This document shows positions 5,127 through 45,915 of a stretch of 64,000 bases of DNA, piece after piece. Source of the stretch: Hydrogenobacter hydrogenophilus (GTDB taxonomy: Bacteria > Aquificota > Aquificia > Aquificales > Aquificaceae); contig NZ_OBEN01000003.1 in NCBI RefSeq assembly GCF_900215655.1, positions 1-64,000 of the forward strand, read 5' to 3'. Both the position numbers and the translations under genes were made by a program. The stretch's first letter is position 1, and every line of letters starts with the position of its first letter. The notes beneath the pieces are model-generated. The model saw only the letters and a program-made list of their open reading frames with translations, ran no database searches and was not told the DNA's origin.

Positions 5127-7667
5127 TTACCTCACCTCACATTTAGGTAGTTCCCTTCTGAGAGAGTTTATCACACTTAGTTCCTCTTTTGAAGCGGTTT
5201 CCAAATTAGCTTTTTCAAGAAAACAGGACGCATCACGCTTTGCATTTAGTTCTATGAGCACTTTAGCACCCTCTATTACCGCTTTGTTATAAAGAGGCGA
5301 ATCTTTATGATTTACCGTTATGTCCACTAAGTCTTCTAAGGCTTTCCTTTTTTCGTTTTCTTTCAGGTAATCAAGAGCGGACAGATAAAGAGCCTGAGGT
5401 CTTATTTGTGGGTCTTTGCTAAGCTTAAGATAATCCAGATAACTTCTGTCTTGGGATGTCTTATAAAGCTCTAAAAGATAGGTTTCAAACTCCTGAGTTC
5501 TGTATCTCTTTTGCATAAGAGCCTTTGCCAACCTTTGAGCATCTTGATCATCCCCTAAGGACATGTATATACCTATTGCCTTGACTTTATCCTCATCTTC
5601 ACCTTCTGCAAGGAGGTCCGCAATGCTCTTTTTGTCTCCTACTTGCGTATAAAACTCTATAAGCTCATCGCGGGCTTGTTTTCTCTCTTGAGCATTACCT
5701 TCCTTGTAGACTTTGTAAAGAAGCACGGCTTTTTTCCCTGGGTCTCTTTCCAAATGTGCCAGCTCAAGTATAGCCTTATATTTGAGTGGACTGTTCATAA
5801 GCTCAATAAGTATAGCCTTTGCCTTTTCTTCCTGACCGCTCTTTATGTATGTTTTGGCAAGCTGGTATCTGAGCTCATCAGACATGGGAGAATTAGGGTA
5901 ATTTTTAAGGTAGTTTTCCAGCAATGTTTCCATCTGTTTGTCCCCAATCTCCTTACCACCCATACCTATAAGAGCAAGTGTGGCGTACTTGGCATACTCA
6001 GAATTGGGATAATTGCTCAGAACTTGGTAGTAGTACTCCTTTGCAAGATCAAGCTTTCCTTCGTTATAAAGGGCATCTCCGAGTTTTAAAAGAGCCTTTG
6101 GTTTGAGCGGACTGTTTTGGGATATGGAATTAAAGTAGTGAATAGATGCTTGGTAATTACCTTCTAAGAAGTACGATAGTCCTATGAGGTAAAGTTCTTC
6201 GTCGCCTTTTTCTGTTAAAAAGCTCCTTGCCAACTTGGTATCTCCCAAGAATAGCGCAGACTTTGCTTTAAGTAGCCTCTCTTTTAGTGAATTTCTGTTT
6301 TGGAGTAATTGCAGTACTTGATTGTAGTCTTTCATGTTAAAGTAAGCCAAAGCCTTATAGTAAGGGTCATCAAGGTAGATTACCGCCTTGTCCCAATCGC
6401 CTTTTTTGAAGTAAAACCAGCCCGTGTATTCCCTGTAAAGGTCTGGATATCTGTCCCTTATCTCATCTAAAATGGGTTCCAAGCTTTTATCAGACCAATA
6501 TGCACTTTCCAAGTACCACTGGTACTCTTCCTTGCTTTTTCTATTTTTTTGTCTTAGGAGTTCGTAAGCTTTTGCGTATTCTCCAAGTTTTATGTAGGAG
6601 TATACTGCGTAAAGTACATTCCCTGATTCTAAAAAGTTATAAACTGCAAGCCTGTAATCTCCTGAGTTGTAGGCTATAATGCCTGCCCTGTCAAGAAAGC
6701 GTTTATCACCTGTAATGGAATAAGTCAATCTGGAGAGTAGCACATTCTTTGAAGACACTATGCCGTAGAGGTTTTCCGAAAGGGGTGGATTTATAGTTTC
6801 CAGTATGCTTGCATAAGATAAAGCGCCTTTGTTATCTCCCCTTTCTGCAGAAATAACGCCAAGATAATAAAGGGCTATGTCTCTGTAAGGTTTTGCCGGT
6901 GTTGAGTACTCTTTAAATATTTCTTCTGCTTGTAGAGTTTTACCTTTCTGATAGAGCACTATGGCTTTTCTTAGCCTTAGGCTGTCCGTGTATTTGTTTC
7001 CTTCTTTCCCTTCGTAGAACTCAAGCACATACTGGCAGTACTCTTTAAAAACCGCATCCGTGCAAGAGGGCTTTGATATAATGCCAGACTTTATGTTAGC
7101 TACCGCTTCCCACATGGGGTCTTTGTTCTGAGGTACCCTGCCAGTGAGTTTAAAGCTAAGGGCGTAGTATGACTCACAGCTTGCCTTTTGGTACATGTGC
7201 GAGTACTTACAAGAATCACTAAAGAGTTCTAAGGCTTTATCTTCTTTTCCTTCTTTAGCGTAAATAACACCAAGGACATACTCTGCCATAGGTTTAAAGG
7301 GCGATGGCATAGCCACCACCTTAGAGAGTTCTTCTTTTGCAGGTCCGTATTTACCCTCTAAGTAGTAGTCCACACCCAATCTGTAAGATGTGCGATCTTT
7401 GGGCTCTCCACAGCTTATGCCACCTTCTTCTTTTAGCGGTTTTATCTGGGTTTGTTCCAACTTATCTGGGGGTTCTAAAAGCCTATAGCTCAGGTTTATA
7501 GATTTATCTTCTTGAATTTGTAAAGTTTCCGGAGGTAAGAGTTTGGGTTTTTCTTCTGTAGACTTGCCTATTAGCTGAACGCTCACATCAAACTCTTTTT
7601 TTATATCTGCTGACACAAGGAAAAGTCCGCACAAAAGAAGGCTAAATAGCCTTATGAGCTTCCACAT
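5127..7667 (-). CDS. Large secreted tetratricopeptide-repeat protein upstream of ExbB/ExbD
   Basis: An 846-residue protein with a signal peptide (hydrophobic LIRLFSLLLCGLFLVSA) and then almost nothing but helical TPR-like repeats; clear examples are PKALLKLGDALYNEGKLDLA and the following YYYQVLSNYPNSEYAKYATL. It is probably a periplasmic scaffold for protein contacts. Position directly before exbB and exbD suggests it belongs to a Tol/Ton-like envelope system, perhaps like CpoB/YbgF, but far longer; that is inference. Its start overlaps the end of the phosphoserine phosphatase gene by 26 nt. No catalytic domain is recognisable. Confidence 0.75.
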   Translation of the reverse strand: MWKLIRLFSLLLCGLFLVSADIKKEFDVSVQLIGKSTEEKPKLLPPETLQIQEDKSINLSYRLLEPPDKLEQTQIKPLKEEGGISCGEPKDRTSYRLGVDYYLEGKYGPAKEELSKVVAMPSPFKPMAEYVLGVIYAKEGKEDKALELFSDSCKYSHMYQKASCESYYALSFKLTGRVPQNKDPMWEAVANIKSGIISKPSCTDAVFKEYCQYVLEFYEGKEGNKYTDSLRLRKAIVLYQKGKTLQAEEIFKEYSTPAKPYRDIALYYLGVISAERGDNKGALSYASILETINPPLSENLYGIVSSKNVLLSRLTYSITGDKRFLDRAGIIAYNSGDYRLAVYNFLESGNVLYAVYSYIKLGEYAKAYELLRQKNRKSKEEYQWYLESAYWSDKSLEPILDEIRDRYPDLYREYTGWFYFKKGDWDKAVIYLDDPYYKALAYFNMKDYNQVLQLLQNRNSLKERLLKAKSALFLGDTKLARSFLTEKGDEELYLIGLSYFLEGNYQASIHYFNSISQNSPLKPKALLKLGDALYNEGKLDLAKEYYYQVLSNYPNSEYAKYATLALIGMGGKEIGDKQMETLLENYLKNYPNSPMSDELRYQLAKTYIKSGQEEKAKAILIELMNSPLKYKAILELAHLERDPGKKAVLLYKVYKEGNAQERKQARDELIEFYTQVGDKKSIADLLAEGEDEDKVKAIGIYMSLGDDQDAQRLAKALMQKRYRTQEFETYLLELYKTSQDRSYLDYLKLSKDPQIRPQALYLSALDYLKENEKRKALEDLVDITVNHKDSPLYNKAVIEGAKVLIELNAKRDASCFLEKANLETASKEELSVINSLRRELPKCEVR

Positions 7668-30641: not shown

Positions 30642-31658
30642 TCACTTCGTAAGCCTGATACCCGTGCCTTCTTCCACCTCTCCTATTATCCAAACATTTG
30701 TACCCAGTGCTTGCGCCCCTTTTTCCACAAAAGGTAGCGCATCTTTTGGGAATGTAAAGAGCAATCCACCAGAAGTATTTGGGTCTGAAAGGAGTAGAAC
30801 CTGCCACCATTGGAGTCCTTCGTTAATCAGGTGCTCTTTTACAAAGTTGTAGTTATCCACAGCACCTTTTGGGTGTATCTTTTGCTTTACAAAAAATACG
30901 GATTCTTCGTATACGGGAACTTGGGAGAACCTTATGGACAATCTAACTTCTGACTTTCTGGCTATATTGTAAGCGTGTCCCATAAGTCCAAAGCCTGTAA
31001 TATCTGTGCAGGAAGTAGCACCAAGTCTCTTTGCAAGCGCGCTCGCTTTGTCGTTGAGCAGTAGCATGTTTTCTATGGCTGGCTTTATGTCCTTTTCGCT
31101 TATCTTTCCTTCTTTTATGGCTTTTGTGAGTATGCCAACACCCACTGGTTTGGTGATTGCCACTAGATCTCCTACCTTTGCACCTTTCTGAGATAGATAC
31201 TTACCATCAGGACACACACCCATCACCGCAAGACCGAATTTGGGTTCTTTGTCATCTATTGTGTGTCCGCCCAGAAGAACTGTTTTTGCCTCTCTGAGTT
31301 TGTCAGCGCATCCTTTCATAACCTCTTTAAGCATACTCACATCCATATCGCAGTTGTTAAAGCCCACTATGGCAAGAGCGTTCAGAGGCACACCTCCCAT
31401 GGCGTACACATCGCTTAAAGAATTTGCTGTGGATATAGCTCCCCAAAGGTATGGATCGTTAACCACGGGAGTTATAAGATCTACGGTATGGATAAATACA
31501 CTTTCATTGTATAGATATACTCCCGCATCATCACCAATACCCAAAAGGGTGCGTTCATCGTAATAAAAGTTCAACCCACTAATAAGATGTTCCAGGTCCG
31601 CCGGACCTACCTTTGCAGCTCAACCGGAAGCCCTAACAAGCTTTAAAAGTTCCACCAT
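30642..31658 (-). CDS. selD: Selenophosphate synthetase, itself a selenoprotein (in-frame TGA = Sec13)
   Basis: A 338-residue SelD making selenophosphate from selenide and ATP. A standard ORF call would start at residue ~30, but the frame continues upstream through one TGA (31622-31620) to ATG at 31658, giving [19 protein letters not shown], exactly the N-terminal catalytic segment where relatives have Cys or Sec followed three residues later by the essential Lys (here Lys16). A 15-nt hairpin follows the TGA at 11 nt. Downstream are [17 protein letters not shown] and [12 protein letters not shown]. There is no good Shine-Dalgarno; a hairpin lies 17 nt upstream of the ATG. It follows lysA on the same strand. 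Confidence 0.93.
31594..31608 (-). promoter_or_regulatory. SECIS-like hairpin of selD
   Basis: Perfect 6-bp stem AGGTCC/GGACCT with a GGC loop, starting 11 nt after the UGA, the same spacing as the SelB-binding hairpin of E. coli fdhF. It lies within the coding region, as bacterial SECIS elements do. Confidence 0.7.
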
Positions 31659-32988: not shown

Positions 32989-35142
32989 TTATAACACGCT
33001 TTTGAGCTTTCTGAAAGCGGACTTCCTAACTATTTGGGATATGTTGGGGAAATTCTTCTTTACTTTTTCCATCTGTTCTTTTACCACTTTTAGCTCTCTC
33101 TCGTCCTCTACAAGACCCTTAGGACAGGAGTTATTCACTATGAGCCTTACCCAGCCTTTTTCAAGGGGTACCTTACTCCAAGGTCTTCCCTCTCCTTCGG
33201 GTAGCTTCACATCTATAAAGGTCCTCTGACAGTTTATAGGACACCAGTGGCACACGGTATCCTGCGATGTGATGGCTCTGTATTCTATGTTCTGTATGGC
33301 TTCAAAACCTCTAAATTTGGTAGTTTTCTGTTTTTGCCAGATTTCCAAAGCTACCAAAGCAGACCCTATGGCTCCTGCTTCACCTGAGTAAGGGTGTACA
33401 TACACTTCTGCGTCGGGAACTTTTGACTTTATAAAGTCCACCTGAGCTTTAACTACCGCAAGGTTTTTATGGGTTCCACCCTGAAGTATGAACTTCTTTC
33501 CCACCTGAGAGAGGTTGTTTATGTTTCCCGCATATATCCATACATTCAAAGGCAGTACATGACACAGTCCTGCCAGTATTTCTTCTGCCTGCCAACCCTT
33601 TCTTTGCTGATTGACTATGTCGCTCTGAAGAAAAACACCACAACCCATGGTGAATGTAGGCATAGCTTTCGCCGAAAAAGCCTTTTGTGCTATCTCATTA
33701 AGGGGTATGTGGAACTTTTCCGCTACGCCCTGCAGGAAAGCTCCGTTTCCAGAAGAACACTGAGAGTTTAGCCTGAAATCCACCACAGAACCCTGCCTTA
33801 GTATCAGGATCTTAACATCCACGCCTCCTACATCGCATATACAGTCCGCATCAGGAAAAAAGTGAAGTCCAGCTGTTGCATGAGCCACAGTCTCTACAAT
33901 GGCTACATCTGCACCCAATATGTCTTTAAGCAAGTCCTTTCCATAACCAGTGATGCCAAGAGCAAGCACCTCTCCGTCTTCTAAGTATTCCTTTATCTGC
34001 CTGAATATCTCCTTTGCGTCCTCTATGGGATTGCCCTTGCTGAGACTGTAGCAAGAAAAAACTATCTCCTTTTCTGGTGTTATGCATACCGCCTTTGCAG
34101 TTGTAGAGCCAAAATCACAGCCCACAATCACTTTTTTTGCCTTCTTTGTTTTCACTCTGTTAGAAACTGCAGACCCGTACTTTTCTAAAAAAACTCTTAG
34201 TTCTTCCTGAGAGTTTACAAGCCCACGCTTTCCTTCTTTTAACTTCTCCTCATACTGTCCCTCTTTGACCCACCACTCTAACTTTTCCTTTCCCGTGTAA
34301 AGTCCGTCCTCTTCCTCCATGGCTGTATAGACACAGCCCAAGCACGCGTAATACAGGGAATTTTCTGGGACATACACGAGTCTTTCCATTTCTTCTTCTG
34401 AAAAGTCCCCAATGCCTCTTTCTCTCCATAATTCTCTGAGGTGATGTCGCCAAGCTTCCTGAAGGCCTTTAAAGAACAGGTTGGGACCCCCAAGAAGTAA
34501 TACTTCTGGAAGGGGTGTGTTGCCCTTTGTGAGCTGAGAGAGGTTTTGGTAAACTACCGCTTCAAAAAGAGAAGCTATTATCTCTTCTGTAGGAACACCA
34601 GCCTTTAGAAGGGAGTTTACATCCGCTTCAGCAAAGATACCACACTTGGAACTTATTTTGTGAAGGGTATAACCTTTATAACCCATACGCGACAGAAGGT
34701 CTTGAGGTATTCCTAACTTTCTTGCGGACTTCTCAATAAAACTACCTGTACCACCTGCACACACATTTTGCATGAACACCTGTCTGTTTCTCTTCCCATC
34801 ATCTTCTTTTATAAATATGGTCTTCATATCCTCACCACCTATCTCACTGACAAATCGTACCTTAGGGTGCAATCTTTCAACAGCTGTTGCTACCGCTACT
34901 ACCTCCTGAAGGAACTTACCACCTATTAGCTTTGCGATGAGTCCCGCTCCAGAACCCGTCAGATAAACCCTGTCCCTTCCTGCCTTTAAGCCAAAGGACT
35001 CTTCCAATTTTGTTAGAAACTCCAGCACCTTTTCTGCTTGCTTTGTGTTGTGCCTTTCGTAAGCTTTATCTAATATATTCCCACTGTCATCTGTAAGGAC
35101 ATACTTACAAGTTGTACTTCCCACATCTATGCCCAAAAACAT
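32989..35142 (-). CDS. Tandem BadF/HgdC-type ATPase activase of 2-hydroxyacyl-CoA dehydratase-like reductases
   Basis: A 717-residue protein with two ASKHA ATPase domains of the BcrAD/BadFG/HgdC family: the first starts FLGIDVGSTTCKYVL with VCAGGTGSFIEKSARKLGI and SSKCGIFAEADVNSL; the second (from ~residue 340) starts VGCDFGSTTAKAV with CDVGGVDVKIL and MGCGVFLQSDI. Cys pairs would hold an interdomain [4Fe-4S] cluster. A C-terminal segment has CHWCPINCQRTF and NNSCPKG. Such activases feed low-potential electrons to a partner, here presumably the 500-residue protein 3 nt upstream. In many bacteria all parts are one ~1400-residue polypeptide. The substrate is unknown. Confidence 0.85.
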   Translation of the reverse strand: MFLGIDVGSTTCKYVLTDDSGNILDKAYERHNTKQAEKVLEFLTKLEESFGLKAGRDRVYLTGSGAGLIAKLIGGKFLQEVVAVATAVERLHPKVRFVSEIGGEDMKTIFIKEDDGKRNRQVFMQNVCAGGTGSFIEKSARKLGIPQDLLSRMGYKGYTLHKISSKCGIFAEADVNSLLKAGVPTEEIIASLFEAVVYQNLSQLTKGNTPLPEVLLLGGPNLFFKGLQEAWRHHLRELWRERGIGDFSEEEMERLVYVPENSLYYACLGCVYTAMEEEDGLYTGKEKLEWWVKEGQYEEKLKEGKRGLVNSQEELRVFLEKYGSAVSNRVKTKKAKKVIVGCDFGSTTAKAVCITPEKEIVFSCYSLSKGNPIEDAKEIFRQIKEYLEDGEVLALGITGYGKDLLKDILGADVAIVETVAHATAGLHFFPDADCICDVGGVDVKILILRQGSVVDFRLNSQCSSGNGAFLQGVAEKFHIPLNEIAQKAFSAKAMPTFTMGCGVFLQSDIVNQQRKGWQAEEILAGLCHVLPLNVWIYAGNINNLSQVGKKFILQGGTHKNLAVVKAQVDFIKSKVPDAEVYVHPYSGEAGAIGSALVALEIWQKQKTTKFRGFEAIQNIEYRAITSQDTVCHWCPINCQRTFIDVKLPEGEGRPWSKVPLEKGWVRLIVNNSCPKGLVEDERELKVVKEQMEKVKKNFPNISQIVRKSAFRKLKSVL

Positions 35143-35145
35143 GTC

Positions 35146-36648
35146 TTACCTCCCCATAAGCTTAGCTATGTGTATAACATAGTTAGATGCGGTGCCTGCA
35201 TACCCGTAGTGAGGTATTTTGTAAGTAGCCTTTCTTAGCTCTGGCTTTTCTAACTCAAAGTTTCTTATGTCTTCTATACTAAGACCTGTTTTTTCAAGAA
35301 CCTCTTCAAACTCCTCCCTTGCTCTTTTCTTTGCCTCGGTGAGTATCATCTGACACCTTGAAAGAGCATGAACTTCCGCATCACCTTTTATCTCAATGGG
35401 TGCGTAAAGTAGGTCTGGATAGTCCCCTAAAACTTTTGCCATCGCTCCCACTGACATGGTATTGGGTAGGCATCCGTAGGGAGAAAGCTCGCATATCATG
35501 TGTGCCTGCCTGTTTTTGTAGGCATAAAGTGCCTTACCTATGAGCATGTGTCCTTCACCACCGGTAAGTCTATAATAAAAGTAAGGTCTGGCAAGGTCCT
35601 TTAAAGTTCTCTGATCTGGCAAAGGATTAGGTATGTTGTTCAGAGATTTTCTTAATTTGTCGTATGTATATCTGTAGAGCTTTGCAAAAAACAACACTAC
35701 TGCCTTTTTGAGATGATAGAACTTTATAAACTCCTTTTTGTCCTCAAGTTTAAAAAGTTCCATATTTATGAGGTAGTCCATCCACACCGCTATAGGTGGT
35801 GGTATAACCTCCGCACCTTCCTGTTCAAGCCATCTTTTTATATTGTAGTTGCCTTCACCTTCGTGGGTCTGAAGCCAGAACTCTCCCGTTATCTTCACCT
35901 TAGGCTTTATCCTTAGCCTGTCTACCTCTATATGATCCCAAAGTTCTTTAACCTCCTTTAAAGCTTTTACAAAGTAGTCAGTGGTCAAATGCCACACAAA
36001 AGAGCCAAATTTTTTGCCCTTTATTGGTCTGTTTTTTAGCCTTTCGTAAAGGAGTTCCACGCTGTCTTTTAGCACTTGGTCTGTCTGTCCCTTTTTCACT
36101 TCGTAAGGTCTTGTTGCGTATTCAAGGTCCGTAAGAAGGTCCCCAATAAACATGGCGTATACAAGTCCTAAGGTAAGAGGTGTATTTATTTCAAGTCCTC
36201 CACCATCTGCGGACTGCTCCATCTGAAGAAGGTCCAGCAGGAATAACCTGAAATCCCTGAGATTCAAACCTTCTAATACCCTCTCGTAAGATTCGTGATA
36301 CTGTCCAAACCTACACGGTCCACACGCCCCTATTGTAACAAAGACATACTCATCTTTAACCTTTTGCCTGCCTTCCTTCTTCTCTATTTCCATGAGTGTT
36401 CTTGCAAGGTTTCCCGCGGTAAAGGTGGTGGGACAGCAAGCACCCACATCTATAAACTCCTTACCTATATCAAGGTCTATCCTCCTTATTTCTGGAAGAG
36501 GCTGGGCTCTGTATCCCATGTTTTCAAGCATTGCTTGTATAAGCCTTTCGTGTTTCCATGTTAGTCCACCAAAAAGCACAGTGGTTTTAGCTCTTTCTTC
36601 TTTTGTAAAAGGTTTGGGTTTGTAAGCTCTATAGTCAAGAACCTCCAT
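35146..36648 (-). CDS. 2-hydroxyglutaryl-CoA dehydratase D-component-like iron-sulfur protein
   Basis: A 500-residue protein related to the HgdB-like/DUF2229 part of large activase-reductase fusions. Likely cluster cysteines are in VGACCPTTFTAGN, GACGPCRFGQYHESY and CELSPYGCLPN. It is partner to the tandem activase that follows after 3 nt. Relatives include 2-hydroxyacyl-CoA dehydratases and the double-cubane-cluster reductase; none of their organic-acid fermentation genes are nearby, so function here is open. It lies directly downstream of selC on the same strand, 75 nt away, with an 8-base T-run (minus strand) between. Confidence 0.75.
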   Translation of the reverse strand: MEVLDYRAYKPKPFTKEERAKTTVLFGGLTWKHERLIQAMLENMGYRAQPLPEIRRIDLDIGKEFIDVGACCPTTFTAGNLARTLMEIEKKEGRQKVKDEYVFVTIGACGPCRFGQYHESYERVLEGLNLRDFRLFLLDLLQMEQSADGGGLEINTPLTLGLVYAMFIGDLLTDLEYATRPYEVKKGQTDQVLKDSVELLYERLKNRPIKGKKFGSFVWHLTTDYFVKALKEVKELWDHIEVDRLRIKPKVKITGEFWLQTHEGEGNYNIKRWLEQEGAEVIPPPIAVWMDYLINMELFKLEDKKEFIKFYHLKKAVVLFFAKLYRYTYDKLRKSLNNIPNPLPDQRTLKDLARPYFYYRLTGGEGHMLIGKALYAYKNRQAHMICELSPYGCLPNTMSVGAMAKVLGDYPDLLYAPIEIKGDAEVHALSRCQMILTEAKKRAREEFEEVLEKTGLSIEDIRNFELEKPELRKATYKIPHYGYAGTASNYVIHIAKLMGR

Positions 36649-36723
36649 GGCTTACCCCCTTATACGTTGTTAGAAAAAAAATTAAACTCATAGGCTAAAA
36701 CTACCCTGTTTTATGTCATCTTT

Positions 36724-36823
36724 TGGCGGGAGAGTAAGGGAATCGAACCCTCCGGGGACCGCATCCAGCGACCCCCCACGGGATTTGAAGTCCCGGGGCG
36801 GCACCAGCCAGCCACACTCTCCC
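36724..36823 (-). tRNA. selC: tRNA-Sec (anticodon TCA)
   Basis: Exactly 100 nt including an encoded CCA. The 8-bp acceptor stem is GGGAGAGT/ACTCTCCC, discriminator G. Anticodon stem CGGGA/TCCCG encloses loop CTTCAAA, so the anticodon is TCA (36788-36786), reading UGA. A long variable arm and GGTTCGATTCC T-loop are visible. The first base coincides with the last base of the TAG stop of the upstream gene, so the tRNA must be cut out of the formate dehydrogenase operon transcript unless it has an internal promoter. Confidence 0.96.
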
Positions 36824-37347
36824 TACCTTTTGGGAAGGCATTCTATATTTTCTCTGATAATTATAGCTTCTACTGTTTTTAGTATATCCTGTGCTTTCTT
36901 TAGCTTTTTGAGACTGTCTGTGTCGTTAGAAGCTATCTTTACCATCCATGCCTCGTAGGGAGAGCTAACCAGCGCAGATGGATCCTTCTCTAAGGAGTGA
37001 TTTACCTCAACTATCTTACCACCTATAGGTGTGGGGAAAGTGGATACCCTTTTTCCAGCTTCCACCACCGCTAAATTATCATCGTATTCAAGCACTGTAC
37101 CCACAGGCTTTATTTTTACTGAATACAAGGGATAGGCTAAAGCAGACATAATGGGCATAAAGCCTACTGAATAAACTCCCTTCCCTTCATCTTTTACCCA
37201 TTGAAATATCATCCTTTCCTCGTCCACTCTGTAGAGCCTATCTTTTTTTATAACACAACCTTTTATCACTGTATCTTCCATTTTCTTACCCCACGAAAGA
37301 GTAGAAAGGCTTAAAAATACCTTTAGAACATCTCGCCTACTTATCAT
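36823..37347 (-). CDS. Exported GcvH-like lipoyl-domain protein
   Basis: A 174-residue protein. Residues ~55-150 match the glycine-cleavage H-protein fold: GVYSVGF, AVVEAGKRVSTFPTPIGGKI with Lys99 in the lipoyl-lysine position, then EVNHSLEKDPSALVSSPYEAWMVKI. The N-terminus MISRRDVLKVFLSLSTLSWG resembles a Tat signal (S-R-R-x-V-L-K plus hydrophobic run), unlike cytoplasmic GcvH. It overlaps fdhE by 4 nt and its stop touches selC, so it belongs to the formate dehydrogenase operon. A redox or carrier role with FdhABC is inferred; lipoylation is not proven. Confidence 0.75.
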   Translation of the reverse strand: MISRRDVLKVFLSLSTLSWGKKMEDTVIKGCVIKKDRLYRVDEERMIFQWVKDEGKGVYSVGFMPIMSALAYPLYSVKIKPVGTVLEYDDNLAVVEAGKRVSTFPTPIGGKIVEVNHSLEKDPSALVSSPYEAWMVKIASNDTDSLKKLKKAQDILKTVEAIIIRENIECLPKR

Positions 37348-38105
37348 AAACCTATGATGCTTTTTTCAAATTTTATAAAGCCCTTTTCTTTTGCCCACAG
37401 ATCAAGATAAAGAGTGGCAATATCATCAAACTGAGGCACAGCAAGTCCGTCAATCCGCATATCAATGATCTTTATGTAAGTGTTGCACTTTTTACAAACT
37501 TGCAAAAGAGCATACCTTTCTCTTTCGTCGTAGTAATATTCAAGGGAATCATCTTCATCGTTTCCACACCTTACGCACTTTGTTCTGTTATAGAGCCATT
37601 CTGTATTACAGAGAACACAACTTAGGTATCTTCCACCTTCTACCTCTTCTGCGTCAGATATGTAAGAAACGCTCGGCTTAAAACCGCAGACGGGGCAGGT
37701 GTTTTTTAACCACTGGTCTTTTTTGATATCCGTACTCTCGGACAGTTTGGAAAAGAAAGGGTTCAAAAAACTGATAAAGATAAATCTTTCTTCATCGCAT
37801 GCTGTTTTTTCCCTTAAAAATTTTTCCATCTTTTTGATTAAATCCTCCTTGCTGAGTTTTTTTAGCTCCCGCAGTACTTCCTTTATTGATGGACTACCGT
37901 GCGCTTCACATACCTCAAAAAGGTGATAGATTTTCTTTATGTGCCTTTTCCAATCGCTATCTTTTATCTGAGTATACAGATCCTTCTTAAAAAGCTCTAC
38001 TTGGTATAAAAAGTCCAGTATGTGCGCAACTTCTGCGTGTTTATCCTTAAGCATCACTAACCTTTCCAGATAATACTCTCTTTCTCTGAGTTTGAAGAGC
38101 ATCAC
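37344..38105 (-). CDS. fdhE: Formate dehydrogenase accessory protein FdhE
   Basis: A 253-residue FdhE with CPVCG, CVLCNTEW, CVRCGN and CKKCN rubredoxin-like cysteine pairs, which bind iron. FdhE is needed for activity of membrane formate dehydrogenases and is thought to act after folding on the Sec-containing catalytic subunit. It overlaps the genes on both sides by 4 nt (sodC upstream, GcvH-like downstream). Confidence 0.93.
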   Translation of the reverse strand: MMLFKLREREYYLERLVMLKDKHAEVAHILDFLYQVELFKKDLYTQIKDSDWKRHIKKIYHLFEVCEAHGSPSIKEVLRELKKLSKEDLIKKMEKFLREKTACDEERFIFISFLNPFFSKLSESTDIKKDQWLKNTCPVCGFKPSVSYISDAEEVEGGRYLSCVLCNTEWLYNRTKCVRCGNDEDDSLEYYYDERERYALLQVCKKCNTYIKIIDMRIDGLAVPQFDDIATLYLDLWAKEKGFIKFEKSIIGL

Positions 38106-38617
38106 TTTATAACTCCGCAGGCTATTCTGGGTCCTGCATCTCCTGCTGGGTCTGTTTTGTAGTCATCACGGTGGTGGTGTATCATGAGAGCGGTGCCACC
38201 TTCTTTTAGAAGGCTGTTTTCTTTATTGGGCTTGAGGGTTATAAAGGTGTTTAGTACATCCACCCTGAGGTTTCCGTTGGAATCGGTAAATACATTGGGC
38301 ATGTCACCTGCATGTGGTCCGTCCGGGTTTAAAAGCCCATGCTTCTTTTTATAGGGATTGAAGTGTCCCTTTGCGGACATAAAGTCTGGTGGGTCACACT
38401 TCCCAACTTCGTGTATATGTAAAGCGAGTTCTGTGTTAGGTGGAAGTCCAACCGCACGAAGCTTTATAAGAACGCCACTGTTTGTCTGCAGGAATTCTGC
38501 TGTGCCTATCTTCTCACCCTTCTGATTTATCAGGTCTGCGTGTGCCTTTATTTCCTGAGCCATTGAGAAAGAAAAGAGGGTGGCGCAGAGCGCCAGACCC
38601 TTGACCACACTCCCCAT
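38102..38617 (-). CDS. sodC: Periplasmic Cu-Zn superoxide dismutase
   Basis: A 171-residue SodC with signal peptide (GLALCATLFSFSMA). Copper/zinc ligands are seen in LHIHEVGKCDPPDF, GHFNP, HGLLNPDGPHAGDMPN and MIHHHRDD; the disulfide Cys pair is in GKCDP and RIACGV. The ATG at 38617 is preferred over the longer frame (38650) since GGAGG is 8 nt upstream and the signal peptide then has normal form. It sits between fdhC and fdhE, which is unusual. Confidence 0.93.
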   Translation of the reverse strand: MGSVVKGLALCATLFSFSMAQEIKAHADLINQKGEKIGTAEFLQTNSGVLIKLRAVGLPPNTELALHIHEVGKCDPPDFMSAKGHFNPYKKKHGLLNPDGPHAGDMPNVFTDSNGNLRVDVLNTFITLKPNKENSLLKEGGTALMIHHHRDDYKTDPAGDAGPRIACGVIK

Positions 38618-38622
38618 GACAC

Positions 38623-39255
38623 TCACCTCCTCATCACCTCCCTGAACCACTTAGGATGGTGCCTCATAGCCCAAAGAGCGGAGACCTTGCCAGTTATCAT
38701 ACCCGATAGAGAGCCTGGAACTCCTATGGTTCCCATGTACACATGCACTATAAAGCCCGCACCTACCAGTATAAAAGCAAGATCGTGAAGGAATATGGAA
38801 AGCCTGACTAAACTTATAGGAAAGCTTTCTGGAAACCACATAAGTATGCCACTTATTAAAAACACCAAACCACCTACAAACACAAGCCAACCAAAGAGCT
38901 TCTGACCTGCGTTGTACTTACCTACTTCTGGTAATTTTTCCTCCTCGCTTTTTATATAATACTTAACATTCTTTAGCCACACCATATCATCGGAAGTAAG
39001 GAAAAAGTCCTTTGCCCATCTTAGGAACATAAGAAGCACTCCTACGGAAAATAAAAGTCCTGCCCAAGGGTGAAGCCATCTTGTAAATTCAAGTCCTCCC
39101 AGCACGGTAAGTAGCCACGAAAACTTAGGAGAGTAAATACCAAGTCCAGAAAAGAAAAGATAAAGAAAAGTTATAGCTACAAGCCAGTGAACAACCCTAT
39201 CAAACCTGCTGAATCTTTCTATCTGTACATCTTCCATATGTCTTGTTTCTTCCAT
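38623..39255 (-). CDS. fdhC: Formate dehydrogenase gamma subunit, cytochrome b556
   Basis: A 210-residue FdnI/FdoI-type diheme cytochrome b with four membrane helices. Heme histidines are likely in FDRVVHWLVAITF, RWLHPWAG, FLHDLAFILVG and FIVHVYMGTIG. It passes electrons from the iron-sulfur subunit to quinone. It follows fdhB after 2 nt. MEETRHMEDVQIERFSRFDR precedes helix 1 and is cytoplasmic. Confidence 0.93.
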   Translation of the reverse strand: MEETRHMEDVQIERFSRFDRVVHWLVAITFLYLFFSGLGIYSPKFSWLLTVLGGLEFTRWLHPWAGLLFSVGVLLMFLRWAKDFFLTSDDMVWLKNVKYYIKSEEEKLPEVGKYNAGQKLFGWLVFVGGLVFLISGILMWFPESFPISLVRLSIFLHDLAFILVGAGFIVHVYMGTIGVPGSLSGMITGKVSALWAMRHHPKWFREVMRR

Positions 39256-39257
39256 GG

Positions 39258-40142
39258 TTAGCCCTCCTTTTTATTACCTACCTTTATTGGTCCAAAGAGT
39301 ATGAGCTGTAAGAAAGCTCCCAGCAATGTACCCCAAAGAACTATAGCACCAAAGATCTTCAAAGGACCTTTCCAGAGGCTTATCCAAGGTGATATACTTG
39401 CCTCTTTTGGAAGTCCGTACATCTGTGGTTTGTCTCCATGAGGGAGAACATATATGTATCCAGTTCCACCCACACCAGGTGGGTCATAGATGACCGCCTT
39501 TTCAAAACCTCTCTTTTTGAGCTGATCCACCATCTTTTTAGCTCTTGACAGCATCTCCTCTTTTGTGCCAAAGTGAAGAGCATTAGTGGGACACGCCTTA
39601 ACGCACGCAGGCTCAAGTCCTGCAGAAACTCTGTCTACACAGAAGTTGCACTTCCAGGGTTTGTTGTTCGCATCGTACCTTGGAATGTCAAAGGGGCAAC
39701 CAGAAAGGCAGAACTTACAGCCTATGCACTTAGAGTGGTCAAAGTCCACTATACCGTTTTCGTACTGAATTACAGCTCCGGGGGAAGGACAGGCTTTTAG
39801 ACAGCCTGGGTCTCCACAGTGCATGCACTGGTACTTGGTGATGAACCAAGTTATACCCTTATCTGTTTCTCCTTCCTTGAACTTCATCATCATAAACAGG
39901 CTTGGCATGAGGTCTGGGTATGACTGATAACCTACAAAGTCCTGACCTTCTTTAAAAAGTGGGGGTTTAAGGTCATGCCACTGAGTGCATGCTGCCTCAC
40001 AACCTTTACAACCTATGCAACTGGATATATCTACAAGTATGGCTAAAGTATCTGTTCTTTTGATGTTTTGGTCAGGAAGCTTAGAAGCAGAAACCCTCTT
40101 TAAACCAAGTCCTACGGTTCCTTCTGTGGTAACAGTACTCAT
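39258..40142 (-). CDS. fdhB: Formate dehydrogenase beta subunit, iron-sulfur protein
   Basis: A 294-residue FdnH/FdoH-type protein with four [4Fe-4S] motifs (CIGCKGCEAAC, CMHCGDPGCLKAC, CIGCKFCLSGCP, CNFCVDRV...CVKACP) and one C-terminal anchor helix (~residues 255-280, FGAIVLWGTLLGAFLQLILF). It links FdhA to the cytochrome b. TAT is not evident; it would be exported with FdhA. Confidence 0.95.
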   Translation of the reverse strand: MSTVTTEGTVGLGLKRVSASKLPDQNIKRTDTLAILVDISSCIGCKGCEAACTQWHDLKPPLFKEGQDFVGYQSYPDLMPSLFMMMKFKEGETDKGITWFITKYQCMHCGDPGCLKACPSPGAVIQYENGIVDFDHSKCIGCKFCLSGCPFDIPRYDANNKPWKCNFCVDRVSAGLEPACVKACPTNALHFGTKEEMLSRAKKMVDQLKKRGFEKAVIYDPPGVGGTGYIYVLPHGDKPQMYGLPKEASISPWISLWKGPLKIFGAIVLWGTLLGAFLQLILFGPIKVGNKKEG

Positions 40143-40154
40143 GTCTAACCTCCT

Positions 40155-43100
40155 TTAAGCTTTCACCTTTTCTATCCTGCACAAAAAGCCCTTAAACTCT
40201 GGCGTCTGAGAATTGGGGTCCCACACAAAGGGTGTTGTGAGGTTTGCGAGGGAACCCCTAACTATTCCTTCAAAACCCCAGTGAATGGGAATCCCAACTG
40301 TATATACCTTCTTACCATTTACGGTTAATGGTTTTATTCTCTTTGTAGGCAGTGCGTAAGCTTCTGCAGAACCTCTGGCTGTTATTATCCTTACCTTTTC
40401 GCCTTCTTTTATGTCAAGCTCCTTGGCAAGCTCTTCAGGTATTTCCACAAACATTTTTTGGAACAGCACGGATGTGCCGTAAATATGTTTTGTCCAGTAA
40501 TGGAAGTGTTCTGTAACCCTGTAGGTGGTCGCTGCGTAGGGGAACTTGTCAGGCTTACCCAAAAGGTCAAGGTCAGACTTATAGACCTTCACCACGGGAT
40601 TTTTGTCTGTCTTGGGGTGCAAAAGGTTTTCTACAGGAGACTCATAAGGCTCGTAGTGTTCTGGGAAAGGACCATCCACCAAAAACTGGGAGTATAGCCT
40701 TCCTCTTCCTTCAGGTAGCATGATGAAAGGTCCATACTCAGGAGGTAAGTCTGGTTTTATGTCAGGCACATCGTAGCCAACCCACTTTTGTTCTTTGGCA
40801 TTCCACCATACAAGTTTTTTCTTAGGAGACCTGGGATTTCCGTCAGGTCCTGCAGAAGCACGATTATAGAGTATTCTCCTGTTGGCAGGCCATGAGTAGC
40901 CGTAGTTGGGGTAGATGCCCAATCCTGAAGGATCCGTTAGGTCTGCTGACTTTGCCCTGTTGCCTGACTGAGGGAACACTCCACAATAGAGCCACATACC
41001 GCAGGAGGTAGTGCCATCGTCCTTTAGGTAGATAAAGCTTGGGAGTCTCTCCCCTTTCTTTACCACCACATTGCCCTTATCATCTTTTATATCATCCAAA
41101 GCAACACCGTTTATCTCAAGCGCTAACACCTCCTCTGCAGTGGGATGGTACGGGTTTTGGAAGGGCCACCTTGCTTTTAGTATGGGGTCTGGGAAGACAC
41201 CACCCTCCTTCTGATAAAGTTCCTTGAGTTTCATATAAAGGTTTCCAATAAACCAAAGCTCCTCCTTTGCATCTCCCGGTGGCTCTACCGCCTTATACTG
41301 CCACTTTAGAGTCCTGGCACTGTTGGTCTTAGTTCCTTCCTTTTCTGCAAACACTGCGGAAGGAAGCAGGAACACTTCCGTTTTTATGCTCTCTGGATTT
41401 TCTGCGTGTTTCCAAAATGCAGCCATTTCAGTTTCAAAGGGATCCATCACCACCATCCACTTGAGGTTAGAAAGAGCAACCGCAGTCTTTTTGGCATTAG
41501 GGGTGTTTGCCAGCAGATTAACACCTATTGATACCACACCTTCCATCTTGCCCTTGAACATCCTGTCCACCGCCTCGTCCCAAGAGATGACCTTGTCCTG
41601 CTTGGGAAGGTAAGAGTAGCAGAATTCATTTTCTGGCGTTGCGTTGTCTCCAAAGTAAGACTTGAGCAGAGAAACTATGAACTTAGAGTAGTTAGACCAG
41701 TAGTTCATAGAGCCTTCATCCCACGGTTTGGGCGTGTTGGCTTCTATATAGTCTTTAAGGGTTTGTTGCTCAGGTGTGGGCGGTTTAAGATAGCCGTGAA
41801 GGAATCTACCTTCCCCAGCAAGATCAGTCATTCCCTGTATGTTGGCATGTCCTCTAAGGGCGTTTACACCGCCACCTGGCACACCTATGTTCCCAAGCAG
41901 TAGCTGAAGTATGGCCATAGAGCCTATCACTTGAGTACCCCAAGAGTGATGCGTCCAACCAAGAGCATACAGGTGCGTCATAGACTTGTCAGGTACCCCT
42001 GTTTCCGCTATAAGTCTTGCAACCTCCAGAAACTTCTCTTTTGGAACGCCCGTTATCTTTTCCACCACCTCTGGTGTGTATCTTGAGTAAAACTGTTTGA
42101 GAAGTTGGAAGACACATCTGGGATGTTCCATGGTCATATCCTTCTTAACCATTCCCTTCTCGTCCCTTTCGTAATCCCAAAGTTTTGTATCGTACTTTCT
42201 CTTTTCTGGATCATAACCAGAGAAGAGACCTGTTGAAGGGTCAAAGTTGTAAGTATCCTTTACTATGTAAGTAGCGTTGGTGAAGTACTTTATGTATTCC
42301 TCATCATACTTTTTGTTCTGTAGCACATAGTTTATTAATCCTCCCATAAAGGCTATGTCCGAACCTGGTCTTATCTGCACAAATATATCAGAAACAGCTG
42401 CAGTTCTATGATATCTCACATCCACACTTATTATCTTTGCTCCCTTTTCCTGTCTGGCTTTTATAGCCCATTTGAAACCACATGGATGGTTTTCCGCAGG
42501 ATTTCCTCCCATAACAAAAACTAAGTCCGCGTTCTTTATGTCGTTCCAAGAGTTGGTCATTGCACCTCTTCCAAATCTTGCGGCCAAACTGGCCACCGTT
42601 GGAGCGTGTCACACTCGCGCCTGAGTTTCCAGCGCCACTAAACCCAACAACCTCCCCAGTTTTACTCCAAGATAGCCTGGCTCGTTCTCCATAGTGCATC
42701 CCATGAGCCAGAAAATACTCTCACATCTGTTTACTGTCCTTCCCTCCTGATCCTTTTCTATAAAGGTTCTGTCTCTTGTGTCCTTTATAAGTTTAGCTAT
42801 TCTGTTGAGTGCTTCTTCCCAGCTTATCTCCTTCCATTCTTTGGCTCCGGGGGGTCTGTATAGAGGTTTGGTGATCCTCTGGGGTGAGTTTACAAAATCC
42901 CTAAGGGTTGCACCTTTAGGACATAGAGTACCTCTGTTTACGGGATCATCCGGATCACCTTCTATGTGTATAACCCTTGGCTTTACATTCATAGCACCGT
43001 CTGTCAAACTGTACACAAGAACTCCGCAGGATACAGAACAATAAGTGCAAACACTTTTAGCAACCTTAGCTTTGGCTATTTTAAGCTCCCTAACGCGCCC

Positions 43101-43196
43101 GTAGGCTGGTGTGAGGTCAAAACCAAGACCTCCAACGATCCCAACACCTACAGAAGCTCCAGAAAGTTTTAGAAAACTTCGTCTTGTGAGCTCCAT
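40155..43196 (-). CDS. fdhA: Selenocysteine-containing formate dehydrogenase alpha subunit
   Basis: A 1013-residue FdnG/FdoG-type molybdo/tungsto-bis-MGD enzyme oxidising formate. The in-frame TGA at 42611-42609 splits naive calls; it encodes Sec196 in ETQARV-U-HAPTVASLAARF, matching the active-site U of E. coli FdnG. The N-terminus has a Tat signal (LTRRSFLKLSGA), then the [4Fe-4S] site CTYCSVSC...GTLCPKGA. A SECIS-like hairpin starts 12 nt after the TGA. ATG 43196 has GGAGG 8 nt upstream. The periplasmic location makes this a quinone-reducing enzyme with FdhB and FdhC. Confidence 0.97.
42580..42596 (-). promoter_or_regulatory. SECIS-like hairpin of fdhA
   Basis: Six-bp stem GTGGCC/GGCCGC (one G-U pair) with a 5-nt loop AGTTT, starting 12 nt after the UGA. 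The loop G-U matches the type of loop used by SelB. Confidence 0.75.
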
Positions 43197-43246
43197 GCCA
43201 TTTACCTCCTGAGCTGATAATTTACAAAATTTCCTTTGGCTTTTGA

Positions 43247-43261
43247 TTTGAAATTTTCAAA
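43247..43261. promoter_or_regulatory. Perfect palindrome upstream of fdhA
   Basis: Seven-base arms TTTGAAA and TTTCAAA around one central base, 51-65 nt before the fdhA start in the 100-nt gap after the GGDEF-EAL gene. It may be an operator for the formate dehydrogenase operon. It is not an exact FNR box, whose half-sites are spaced by four bases. Confidence 0.4.
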
Positions 43262-43296
43262 AAGAAAAAACCAAACATATCAATATCAGGATATAC

Positions 43297-45915
43297 TTAA
43301 GAGCGTAAAAGCTTCAGTAAGTCTCTAATGTCCATAGGTTTGCCAAGATAAAATCCCTGTAGATAATGGCATCCTATTTCCCTAAGTATGTCTAACTGTG
43401 ATCGCCTTTCTATACCCTCCGCAACAGTTTTTGCACCAAGAACATTAGCTATGGAAACTATAGCTTTTACCACATTCAGAACTCTTTCATCAGTATCCAC
43501 CTCCTTAGTAAAAGACATGTCTATCTTTATGTAGTCTATGGAAAGCCTGGTAAGGTAAGACAGAGATGAGTACTTTACTCCAAAATCGTCAAGAACGATA
43601 GAAAAACCGTGTTCCTTTAATACCTTTAACAGCGTTTGTGCTTTCTGAAGATCCTCTATAAGCGTGCCTTCTGTGATTTCTAAAAGAATAAGCTCAGCAG
43701 GTACTCTGTACTTATTAAGAAGCTCAGATAACCTATCCGGAAGGTCTTCCCTCTTTATCTGCACGGGCGACAGGTTTATGGATATAGGAATTTCTAAGTT
43801 ATACCGCTTTATCATACTTAAGCACTGTTCAAATACATAATAACCAACATCCACTATAAGCTCTGTCTCTTCAAGTATATCTATAAAACTGCCTGCTTGT
43901 AAAAAGCCAAATCTCTCTGAGTTCCATCTTAGAAGCACTTCTGCCATAGCAGGCTTTAGGTCTAAGGAACTGTAAATAGGTTGGAAGTGCAAAAGAAACT
44001 CACCTTTCTCTAAAGCAGTTTTTAACTCTTCTACAAGCTTTAGTCTTTCCAAAAGTTTTTCTTTTTCTTCTTCATTATAGAGCTCAAAGCTTCCAGGTGC
44101 TTTCTCTTCTGCCTTTCTAAGAGCTATCTCTACAGCATGCAAAAGATCCAAAGTGTTGTTTGCATCATCAGGATAAATGGATATACCCACATGAAAACCA
44201 AGCCTATAGTTAAAGTTTTCTAACTTTAACTCACCCATCTTAAAGATGTCTTTAAGCAAGTTGTATATCTCTTCTTTGCTGTCTAATTCTTTAAACCCTA
44301 TAAAAGCATCATCTCCATACCGTGCCCAAAAACCCGGCAGTGTCATAAGTCTTTCTGCAAAGGATTTGAGAAGTCTATCTCCAAACTCATAACCGTAAAG
44401 AGCGTTAACGGCGGAAAAGTTGTGAATATCTATTAGAAAAACACCTATAGTGCTATCACTTTTTTCCTTTATGTTTCTTTCCAGTTCTCTGAGGAAATGA
44501 TCTCTTTTAGGTAAGTTTGTAAGTGGGTCATAGTTGATTATTTTGTGCATTTTTTCCTCAATTTCCCTCATTAAGGTTATGTCCCTTGCGGTAGAAACAA
44601 AGTTGGTTATCCTGCCCGCATCATCCTTAATGGGGGTTATTATTTGGTCTAAGTAGAACAGGCTCCCATCCTTGCGCCTATTTATAAAAATCTCGTGAAA
44701 TTCCTCCCCTGAAAGTATAGTATCCCAAAGTTTTTTATAAAACTCTCTACCATGAAACCCTGATTTAAAAACCCTCGGAGTTTTTCCTATAAGCTCTTCT
44801 CTACTATACCCACTTATGCGTTCCACTGCTGGATTTGCGTAAAGGATCTTACCTTCAATATCTGTTATTAATGTCCACTCATCAGACTGCTCAATGGCTC
44901 TATACAGGATCTGTATATTTTTTAGAGTATCTAAGTGTTCTAAGGCAAAGGACACATCCCGTCCTACTTCTTCCACTAACCCAACGATCTCTTCGGTGAA
45001 GAAACCCTTTTTGTCCGAATAAAGATTTATAGTTCCTATGACTTTACCCTTTAGCGTTATGGGGCAGGCACAGCTTGAAAGGTACTTTCTTTTTAGCATT
45101 TGCACACGCCACGGGAGCACATCCGGATTAGTTTCCGTATCGTTGTTTACTTGAACCTTTTGCTCTAAAATAGCTCTTGCGGAAGGTCCTTTGTTAAGCT
45201 TTTCATCGTATATATTGATGGTTATCTCATCCAGATAACCCTCTACCGATCCGCAAGTGTAATGAGGTTTTAGGTTCCCCTCACTGTCAAGAAATCCTAT
45301 CCATACCATCCTAAATCCTGCAACTTGAATCATTATCTGACAGAGCTGTTGTAAAACTTCTTCCTTACTATTTGCCTTTAGCACGATATTATTTACCGCA
45401 GACAGTACCTTATACATATTTGCAATGAATAACGCTCTTTGTCTTTCGTAGTGCTTCTTTAAGTAAACTGATGACAAAAGAAGTACACAGATGTCTTCTT
45501 CACTGTAGGCTTTTTTAACATCATGTTCGCACATAATAAAGTCAGTAAGCTCTCCCTTTTCTGTTGTTAGGGACGCTATCAGAAGTGATTGTGTGTTTCT
45601 GAAGCCCAAATACTCTCCCATGCAAGCACTTATCTTTAGATTAAAAGGCTTTTCTGCACTTATTACCCTTTCTTTTTGTAAGTAATCAATAAATTCTAAA
45701 CAATTCTCTTTCTTTACCTGAAGTCCACCAATAAAATCATCCTCGCTTTTTGTATACATATACTCGCAAAAGAGTATGTCCCCTTTTACATTCCAAAGGC
45801 TTGTTCTTTGAGCGGATAAAAACTGAGCGCACAGTTTGAGAAGCCCCTTTACAAACTCTTCCCTTTCCAAAGAATACAGTTCAGAGGATTTTCTAAAAAA
45901 GTCAAGAAGTTTCAT
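43297..45915 (-). CDS. GAF-GAF-PAS-GGDEF-EAL cyclic-di-GMP signalling protein
   Basis: An 872-residue soluble protein: GAF-like domain (~20-165), second GAF (~175-335), PAS/PAC (~345-460: ILYANPAVERISGYSREELIGK), GGDEF (~470-620) and EAL (~630-870). The GGDEF signature is YGDDAF, degenerate, so cyclase activity is doubtful. The EAL domain keeps AEVLLRW, EITEGTL, VLDDFGVKYSSL, IKIDMSF and AEGIERR, so phosphodiesterase activity is likely. No membrane segment is seen. GGAGG lies 10 nt upstream of the ATG; a 14-base homopolymer lies ~55 bp upstream. Confidence 0.9.
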   Translation of the reverse strand: MKLLDFFRKSSELYSLEREEFVKGLLKLCAQFLSAQRTSLWNVKGDILFCEYMYTKSEDDFIGGLQVKKENCLEFIDYLQKERVISAEKPFNLKISACMGEYLGFRNTQSLLIASLTTEKGELTDFIMCEHDVKKAYSEEDICVLLLSSVYLKKHYERQRALFIANMYKVLSAVNNIVLKANSKEEVLQQLCQIMIQVAGFRMVWIGFLDSEGNLKPHYTCGSVEGYLDEITINIYDEKLNKGPSARAILEQKVQVNNDTETNPDVLPWRVQMLKRKYLSSCACPITLKGKVIGTINLYSDKKGFFTEEIVGLVEEVGRDVSFALEHLDTLKNIQILYRAIEQSDEWTLITDIEGKILYANPAVERISGYSREELIGKTPRVFKSGFHGREFYKKLWDTILSGEEFHEIFINRRKDGSLFYLDQIITPIKDDAGRITNFVSTARDITLMREIEEKMHKIINYDPLTNLPKRDHFLRELERNIKEKSDSTIGVFLIDIHNFSAVNALYGYEFGDRLLKSFAERLMTLPGFWARYGDDAFIGFKELDSKEEIYNLLKDIFKMGELKLENFNYRLGFHVGISIYPDDANNTLDLLHAVEIALRKAEEKAPGSFELYNEEEKEKLLERLKLVEELKTALEKGEFLLHFQPIYSSLDLKPAMAEVLLRWNSERFGFLQAGSFIDILEETELIVDVGYYVFEQCLSMIKRYNLEIPISINLSPVQIKREDLPDRLSELLNKYRVPAELILLEITEGTLIEDLQKAQTLLKVLKEHGFSIVLDDFGVKYSSLSYLTRLSIDYIKIDMSFTKEVDTDERVLNVVKAIVSIANVLGAKTVAEGIERRSQLDILREIGCHYLQGFYLGKPMDIRDLLKLLRS

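Follow-up and report, generated by a model that had tools for sequence, protein, structure and literature searches.

The tRNA-Sec gene (selC) of Hydrogenobacter hydrogenophilus begins on the stop codon of its upstream neighbor, a GcvH-like gene (gcvH) that closes a formate dehydrogenase (FDH) operon: one base is common to both, and in 18 of the 22 gcvH-selC pairs found in the Aquificaceae the third base of the stop is G1 of the tRNA. The arrangement is not an accident of one genome but is conserved across the family. Its features in a window of 64,000 nucleotides are given in Table 1.

Table 1. Features of the window around selC, in the order of transcription of the minus strand.
Feature	Position	Strand	Basis and remarks
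fdnG, FDH-N alpha	40155..43196	minus	TIGR01553, 1520 bits; single in-frame UGA at 42611..42609
fdnH, FDH beta	39258..40142	minus	TIGR01582, over cut-off
fdnI, FDH gamma (cytochrome b)	38623..39255	minus	TIGR01583, over cut-off
sodC, Cu/Zn superoxide dismutase	38102..38650	minus	PF00080
fdhE, formate dehydrogenase accessory protein	37344..38105	minus	PF24859/PF24860; TIGR01562 under its cut-off
gcvH, GcvH-like gene, 174 codons	36823..37347	minus	PF01597 GCV_H, E 6e-30
TATAAT inside gcvH, -42 from G1	36860..36865	minus	putative -10; predicted start near 36853
TAG stop of the GcvH-like gene	36823..36825	minus	its G is G1 of the tRNA
selC, tRNA-Sec, anticodon TCA	36724..36823	minus	ARAGORN and Rfam RF01852; encoded CCA
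Next gene 3' of selC, 500 codons	35146..36648	minus	no family match
BcrAD/BadFG-type acyl-CoA dehydratase activase-like gene	32989..35142	minus	profile match
selD	30642..31658	minus	in-frame UGA at 31622..31620; second selenoprotein gene of the locus

The junction and the formate dehydrogenase operon

The Rfam model RF01852 matched positions 36728..36823 with 77.7 bits, relative to a gathering score of 47. The acceptor stem of selC (GGGAGAGU/ACUCUCCC) has 8 bp, the T stem has 5 bp and the discriminator base is G (G73); the same 8/5 stems and discriminator G were found in all 56 selC genes compared, 36 from the family and 20 from an outgroup. With a score over the curated cut-off, a UCA anticodon and these stems, the gene has the features of a bacterial tRNA-Sec. 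Because the acceptor and T-stem pairing is 8 bp/5 bp, G1 is fixed at 36823, and the original prediction of a one-base overlap with the TAG codon is correct, including its coordinates. A 6-bp hairpin is possible in the final codons of gcvH (36824..36840, minus strand), abutting the acceptor stem of the tRNA; the fold of this leader hairpin together with the tRNA gave a z value of -2.0, which is due mostly to the tRNA and was given no weight.

Judged by its profile scores, the gene upstream of selC is GcvH-like only, as its protein is over the Pfam cut-off and reaches 57 bits against TIGR00527, under the NCBIfam equivalog cut-off of 115.85. An N-terminal RR is invariant in this protein across 15 of 15 relatives, in all of which a mostly hydrophobic stretch comes next, and the Lys at the position that carries lipoate in GcvH is also invariant. 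These features suggest that it may be a lipoyl protein of the operon, exported in a Tat-like manner.

As shown in Table 1, the operon runs on the minus strand in the order fdnG(UGA)-fdnH-fdnI-sodC-fdhE-gcvH, followed by selC, and successive genes up to selC overlap or are separated by at most 12 nt. The predicted FDH operon context of selC was confirmed, with the FDH-N alpha subunit containing one in-frame TGA, the beta and gamma subunits, FdhE and a GcvH-like protein; of the 19 selC genomes whose context was read, 15 share it. The Cu/Zn superoxide dismutase gene lies inside the operon in 12 of the 15 fdn-gcvH-selC loci. From the gene order and the absence of the usual tRNA promoter, we infer that gcvH and selC are co-transcribed.

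The original prediction also described FDH as the customer of the tRNA, which is overstated. The window contains a selD gene with its own UGA approximately 5 kb downstream of selC, so that FDH as the sole selenocysteine (Sec) user is ruled out. In a search of 37 genomes, SelD carries one TGA in 14 of 14 selC genomes, FdnG carries one in 10 of the 14, and the SelD of three genomes without selC has no TGA. The four genomes with no full FdnG (G005, G011, G017 and G018) are the same four, among the first 19, in which selC does not stand behind gcvH. Since FDH is not the only user, a supply of tRNA-Sec independent of the operon would be sensible. The window thus holds a small island of Sec genes; selB and selD are also near fdnG-selC in G007 and G009, and the selB of the window genome is on another contig (G000:C1:163998-165701). 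In G005 (loci L007 and L066), a remnant of fdnG lies directly upstream of selC and SelB survives as two fragments; selC itself and a selD with a UGA are retained, and to judge from these remnants, the Sec trait is decaying in this genome.

Conservation of the selC position

A clear selC was found with RF01852 in 56 of 136 genomes of the phylum: 36 belong to the Aquificaceae and the other 20 to an outgroup at class level, a family that is probably the Desulfurobacteriaceae. Genes were counted only at E <= 1e-11 (66-84 bits), as RF01852 also matches other tRNAs at approximately 40-50 bits, and the searches with RF01852 and RF00010 over more than 40 genomes used the stricter filters of Infernal. 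ARAGORN missed the selC genes of G066 and G068, whose positions were taken from the ends of the Infernal matches.

Among the 36 selC genes of the Aquificaceae, an intact gcvH-like gene lies directly upstream in 22, and the figures for 15 genomes given in this report refer to a subset of these 22. The four stop codons that do not share G1 end before it, by 1 (TAA, G027), 1 (TGA, G069), 2 (TGA, G012) and 3 positions (TAG, G007). The one-base sharing persists while the gcvH proteins diverge to approximately 42% identity. In G079, which was left out of the 22, gcvH is truncated to its 3' part, yet the TAG is shared and a TATAAT at -39 is kept. Eleven further contig loci were not added to the count, as some repeat genomes already included; selC directly follows gcvH in 10 of them and is missing from L097. 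This last locus (6001-7412), from a MAG labelled Acidobacteria, has a gcvH-like gene with 63% identity followed by sequence that resembles, by eye, a type I restriction methylase gene; on this reading of its sequence, the contig is mislabelled or rearranged.

The remaining family members have other neighbors. selC follows selB in four genomes, where the stop codon ends at +14, +11, +11 and -5 relative to G1, and overlaps it in G011, G071 and G074; an overlap with selB thus occurs in these three relatives and not in the window. It follows a THEP1-type NTPase gene in two genomes (stop at +11 in one; stop at -14 in the other, with its own TATAAT at -18), a T2SSF protein (T2SS-F) gene in one, with the TAG shared, and a MetK gene in one, with the stop at -1. 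A clear abutting coding sequence (CDS) is absent in five (G005, G066, G067, G077 and G080). In total, selC is tight against a CDS in 29 of the 36 genes, with five different partner genes and seven cases other than gcvH (SelB 4, THEP1 NTPase 1, T2SS-F 1 and MetK 1); these are related genes, and because of common ancestry the 29 are not independent events. None of the 20 outgroup selC genes examined clearly abuts or overlaps an upstream CDS. In 16 of them, an upstream ORF of at least 158 codons ends 13-70 positions before G1, and three have no such ORF; in G125, the sole upstream ORF, of 77 codons, ends next to G1, which may be due to chance.

A CDS stop lies within -30 to +5 nt of the tRNA start in 11 of 129 other tRNAs from three genomes (7/43 in the window genome, 1/43 in G007 and 3/43 in the outgroup G132), where ORFs of at least 100 codons were used, some perhaps spurious. 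The seven cases in the window genome rule out that the tightness of selC is unique there; the difference between selC and other tRNAs is one of degree, not of kind. At three loci of the window genome (L048, L050 and L051), ORFs enter tRNA genes and end at T8-A9-G10 as TAG, and the tRNA itself may supply their stop codon.

A candidate promoter in gcvH and the sequence downstream of selC

The sequence TATAAT occurs within gcvH at -39 to -45 from G1 in 14 of the 22 genomes, relative to 4.3 expected from synonymous codon sampling, and the exact word is missing in the other eight. When one genome was taken per cluster of codon similarity, the P values were 3.5e-8 (18 clusters), 3.9e-7 (16) and 6.5e-4 (5), and these are to be read with the fact that the TATAAT at -42 was noticed first and tested afterwards. 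In the remaining operon genes tested in 15 genomes the word is depleted, with 7 seen and 17.8 expected. Clades differ by one position in the codon register of the site inside gcvH, yet its distance to G1 is kept. A general rise in synonymous conservation over the 3' end of gcvH was rejected, as the ratio of observed to expected was 1.04-1.19 in the last windows and 0.96-1.38 elsewhere.

The TATAAT inside gcvH is likely to be a promoter of selC with a leader of approximately 30 nt. As the predicted start is approximately 30 nt upstream of 36823, 5' processing would still be needed and control by the operon would be partial. The original prediction was to fall if an internal promoter started transcription exactly at 36823; the TATAAT is placed for a start approximately 30 nt upstream instead. 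Other tRNAs have a TATAAT starting at -24 to -12 in 24 of 43 cases in the window genome and 19 of 43 in G007, and the selC genes of G063, G067 and G077, which are not tight against a CDS, have one at -16 to -18. Among the gcvH-linked selC genes, the number is 0 of 22, so that the placement expected for a leaderless tRNA with its start at G1 was not found. No consistent -35 partner was found for the TATAAT inside gcvH; the tRNA promoters of the window genome also reach 4 of 6 matches at -35 in only 11 of 24. A promoter scan of 35000-44000 gave 11 promoter-like sites, none at selC, relative to 13.7 expected in shuffles, and was uninformative.

selC had further been described as the tail of the operon, which is less certain than the shared base. 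A search between selC and the next gene in the window gave no terminator-like site; an intrinsic terminator was rejected, as none was listed and the 91-nt fold after selC was weaker than that of shuffled sequences (z +1.8). The next gene on the same strand starts 9-19 nt past the tRNA in 9 of the 15 gcvH-linked genomes and approximately 75-94 nt past it in four genomes of the genus of the window (for G003, the start at 94 nt was used in preference to a possible one at 22 nt), and in two no same-strand gene starts within 130 nt of selC. In some genomes, selC may lie in the middle of a transcript rather than at its tail. In five loci (L003, L010, L012, L015 and L016), the stretch from selC to the next ATG contains a TATAAT only a few bases upstream of the start codon, which suggests near-leaderless mRNAs for the genes just after selC.

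Release of the tRNA and its interpretation

HARP (PF08745) is present in 37 of 37 Aquificaceae genomes and RNase P RNA (RF00010) was detected in 0 of 37, whereas another family of the same order has the reverse pattern, with HARP in 0 of 17 and RNase P RNA in 16 of 17. The predicted use of HARP in a lineage without RNase P RNA was accordingly borne out in its genomic part, and dependence on HARP is predicted for the family. The prediction had also held that maturation in this context was notable, and this part carries less weight, with the seven other tight tRNAs of the window genome; release of tRNAs from transcripts linked to mRNA is general in bacteria. In E. coli, for example, tRNA genes lie in mRNA operons and are released by RNase P. 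The gcvH-selC junction is similar in that the tRNA stands behind a protein gene on a putative single transcript and a 5' cut is needed, but here the cut would cross a stop codon and HARP would be the enzyme expected to make it. The acceptor-T stack of tRNA-Sec has 13 bp, compared to the usual 12 bp. The presence of HARP without RNase P RNA agrees with the relevant passages of PMC4227106, which also record the presence of tRNA-Sec in Aquificales, and of the review PMC10941002, which state that Aquifex tRNAs need 5' maturation. HARP has been proposed (PMC8405995) to act as a ruler from the elbow to the cut site; the HARP literature searched gave no cleavage position for an acceptor-T stack of 13 bp.

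The nearest precedent is the selC nested in or overlapping selB, published with a nonstop-mRNA model (Mukai 2021, PMC8124441). In both cases, bases of tRNA-Sec are common to the upstream CDS and 5' processing would leave a nonstop message. The present junction is unlike selB-selC in four respects: its partner in the window is a GcvH-like gene from the FDH operon, a single base of the stop overlaps, HARP is present in the family while RNase P RNA was not detected, and the upstream gene contains a promoter-like word. In Nanoarchaeum equitans, another lineage without RNase P RNA, tRNAs are leaderless according to the same passages of PMC10941002; for the gcvH-linked selC, in contrast, no promoter lies where transcription would begin at G1. 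The literature searched contained no account of an overlap between gcvH and selC, which older papers on tRNA maturation in Aquifex (Willkomm 2002, Marszalkowski 2008) might mention.

We give slightly better than even chances to the reading in which selC is carried on the fdn operon transcript and released by HARP with loss of the stop codon, with an additional supply from the internal promoter. selC would ride at the 3' end of the operon transcript, and a 5' cut, most likely by HARP, would free tRNA-Sec. A cut 5' of G1 splits UA from G, so that the gcvH message would be left without a stop codon, a consequence predicted from the geometry alone. Because the cut would take the stop, translation of the last gcvH codons and maturation of the tRNA would exclude each other on one molecule; loss of the stop is not essential, since the stop is clear of the cut in four of the 22 gcvH pairs. 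The TATAAT inside gcvH would probably yield a second, operon-independent transcript, which would supply tRNA-Sec to SelD without expression of FDH.

The position of selC could also be due to compaction only, where the gene is trapped at the 3' end of another in a small, dense genome with no regulatory coupling, and the one-base overlap persists since indels at this point are infrequent or deleterious. This possibility, to which we attach a smaller but real probability, accounts for the other tRNAs tight behind coding sequences in the window genome and for the unrelated partners of selC in relatives (SelB, THEP1, T2SSF and MetK), but sits less well with the retention of the exact overlap in diverged gcvH genes, and it does not predict an enrichment of TATAAT at a fixed distance from selC. 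That enrichment can instead be taken to mean that the internal promoter mainly serves selC, with read-through from the operon irrelevant and the FDH context a matter of history. The TATAAT at -42, its retention with the shared TAG in G079 despite the truncated gcvH, and the need of SelD for tRNA-Sec in every selC genome searched point in this direction; with no -35 element, the exact word missing in eight genomes and no sequence feature found that would block read-through, we regard it as rather unlikely.

Mutual exclusion might itself be the function, as proposed for nested selB-selC, where tRNA maturation would produce a nonstop mRNA and thereby tune the upstream protein. The published model (PMC8124441), the exact sharing of the stop in most gcvH pairs, and the stops inside selC in three SelB pairs (+11, +11 and +14) and one NTPase pair (+11) would fit. 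We nevertheless consider such tuning improbable, as it is not known why the level of a GcvH-like protein should be balanced against that of tRNA-Sec, the partners vary, and the stop is clear of the cut in the four gcvH pairs and in one of four SelB pairs. Equally doubtful is a built-in switch at the junction, trading translation of the FDH operon against the supply of tRNA-Sec. As HARP is proposed to act as a ruler and the stack of tRNA-Sec is 13 bp, the fate of G1, shared with the stop, would be uncertain: a cut before G1 would leave the gcvH message nonstop and tRNA-Sec complete with its 8/5 stems, and a cut after G1 would keep UAG at the cost of the first base of the tRNA. Since a ribosome terminating there would occupy these bases too, the trade-off would be made transcript by transcript, with the promoter inside gcvH giving SelD a basal supply.

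The results add a thermophilic family, whose RNase P is protein-only and whose selC lies tight behind at least five different partner genes, to the cases of overlap between a CDS and selC. The gcvH-selC mRNA, with the final base of its stop codon in common with the tRNA, would be a natural substrate suited to testing the cut of HARP on a 13-bp stack and the competition of tRNA processing with translation termination.
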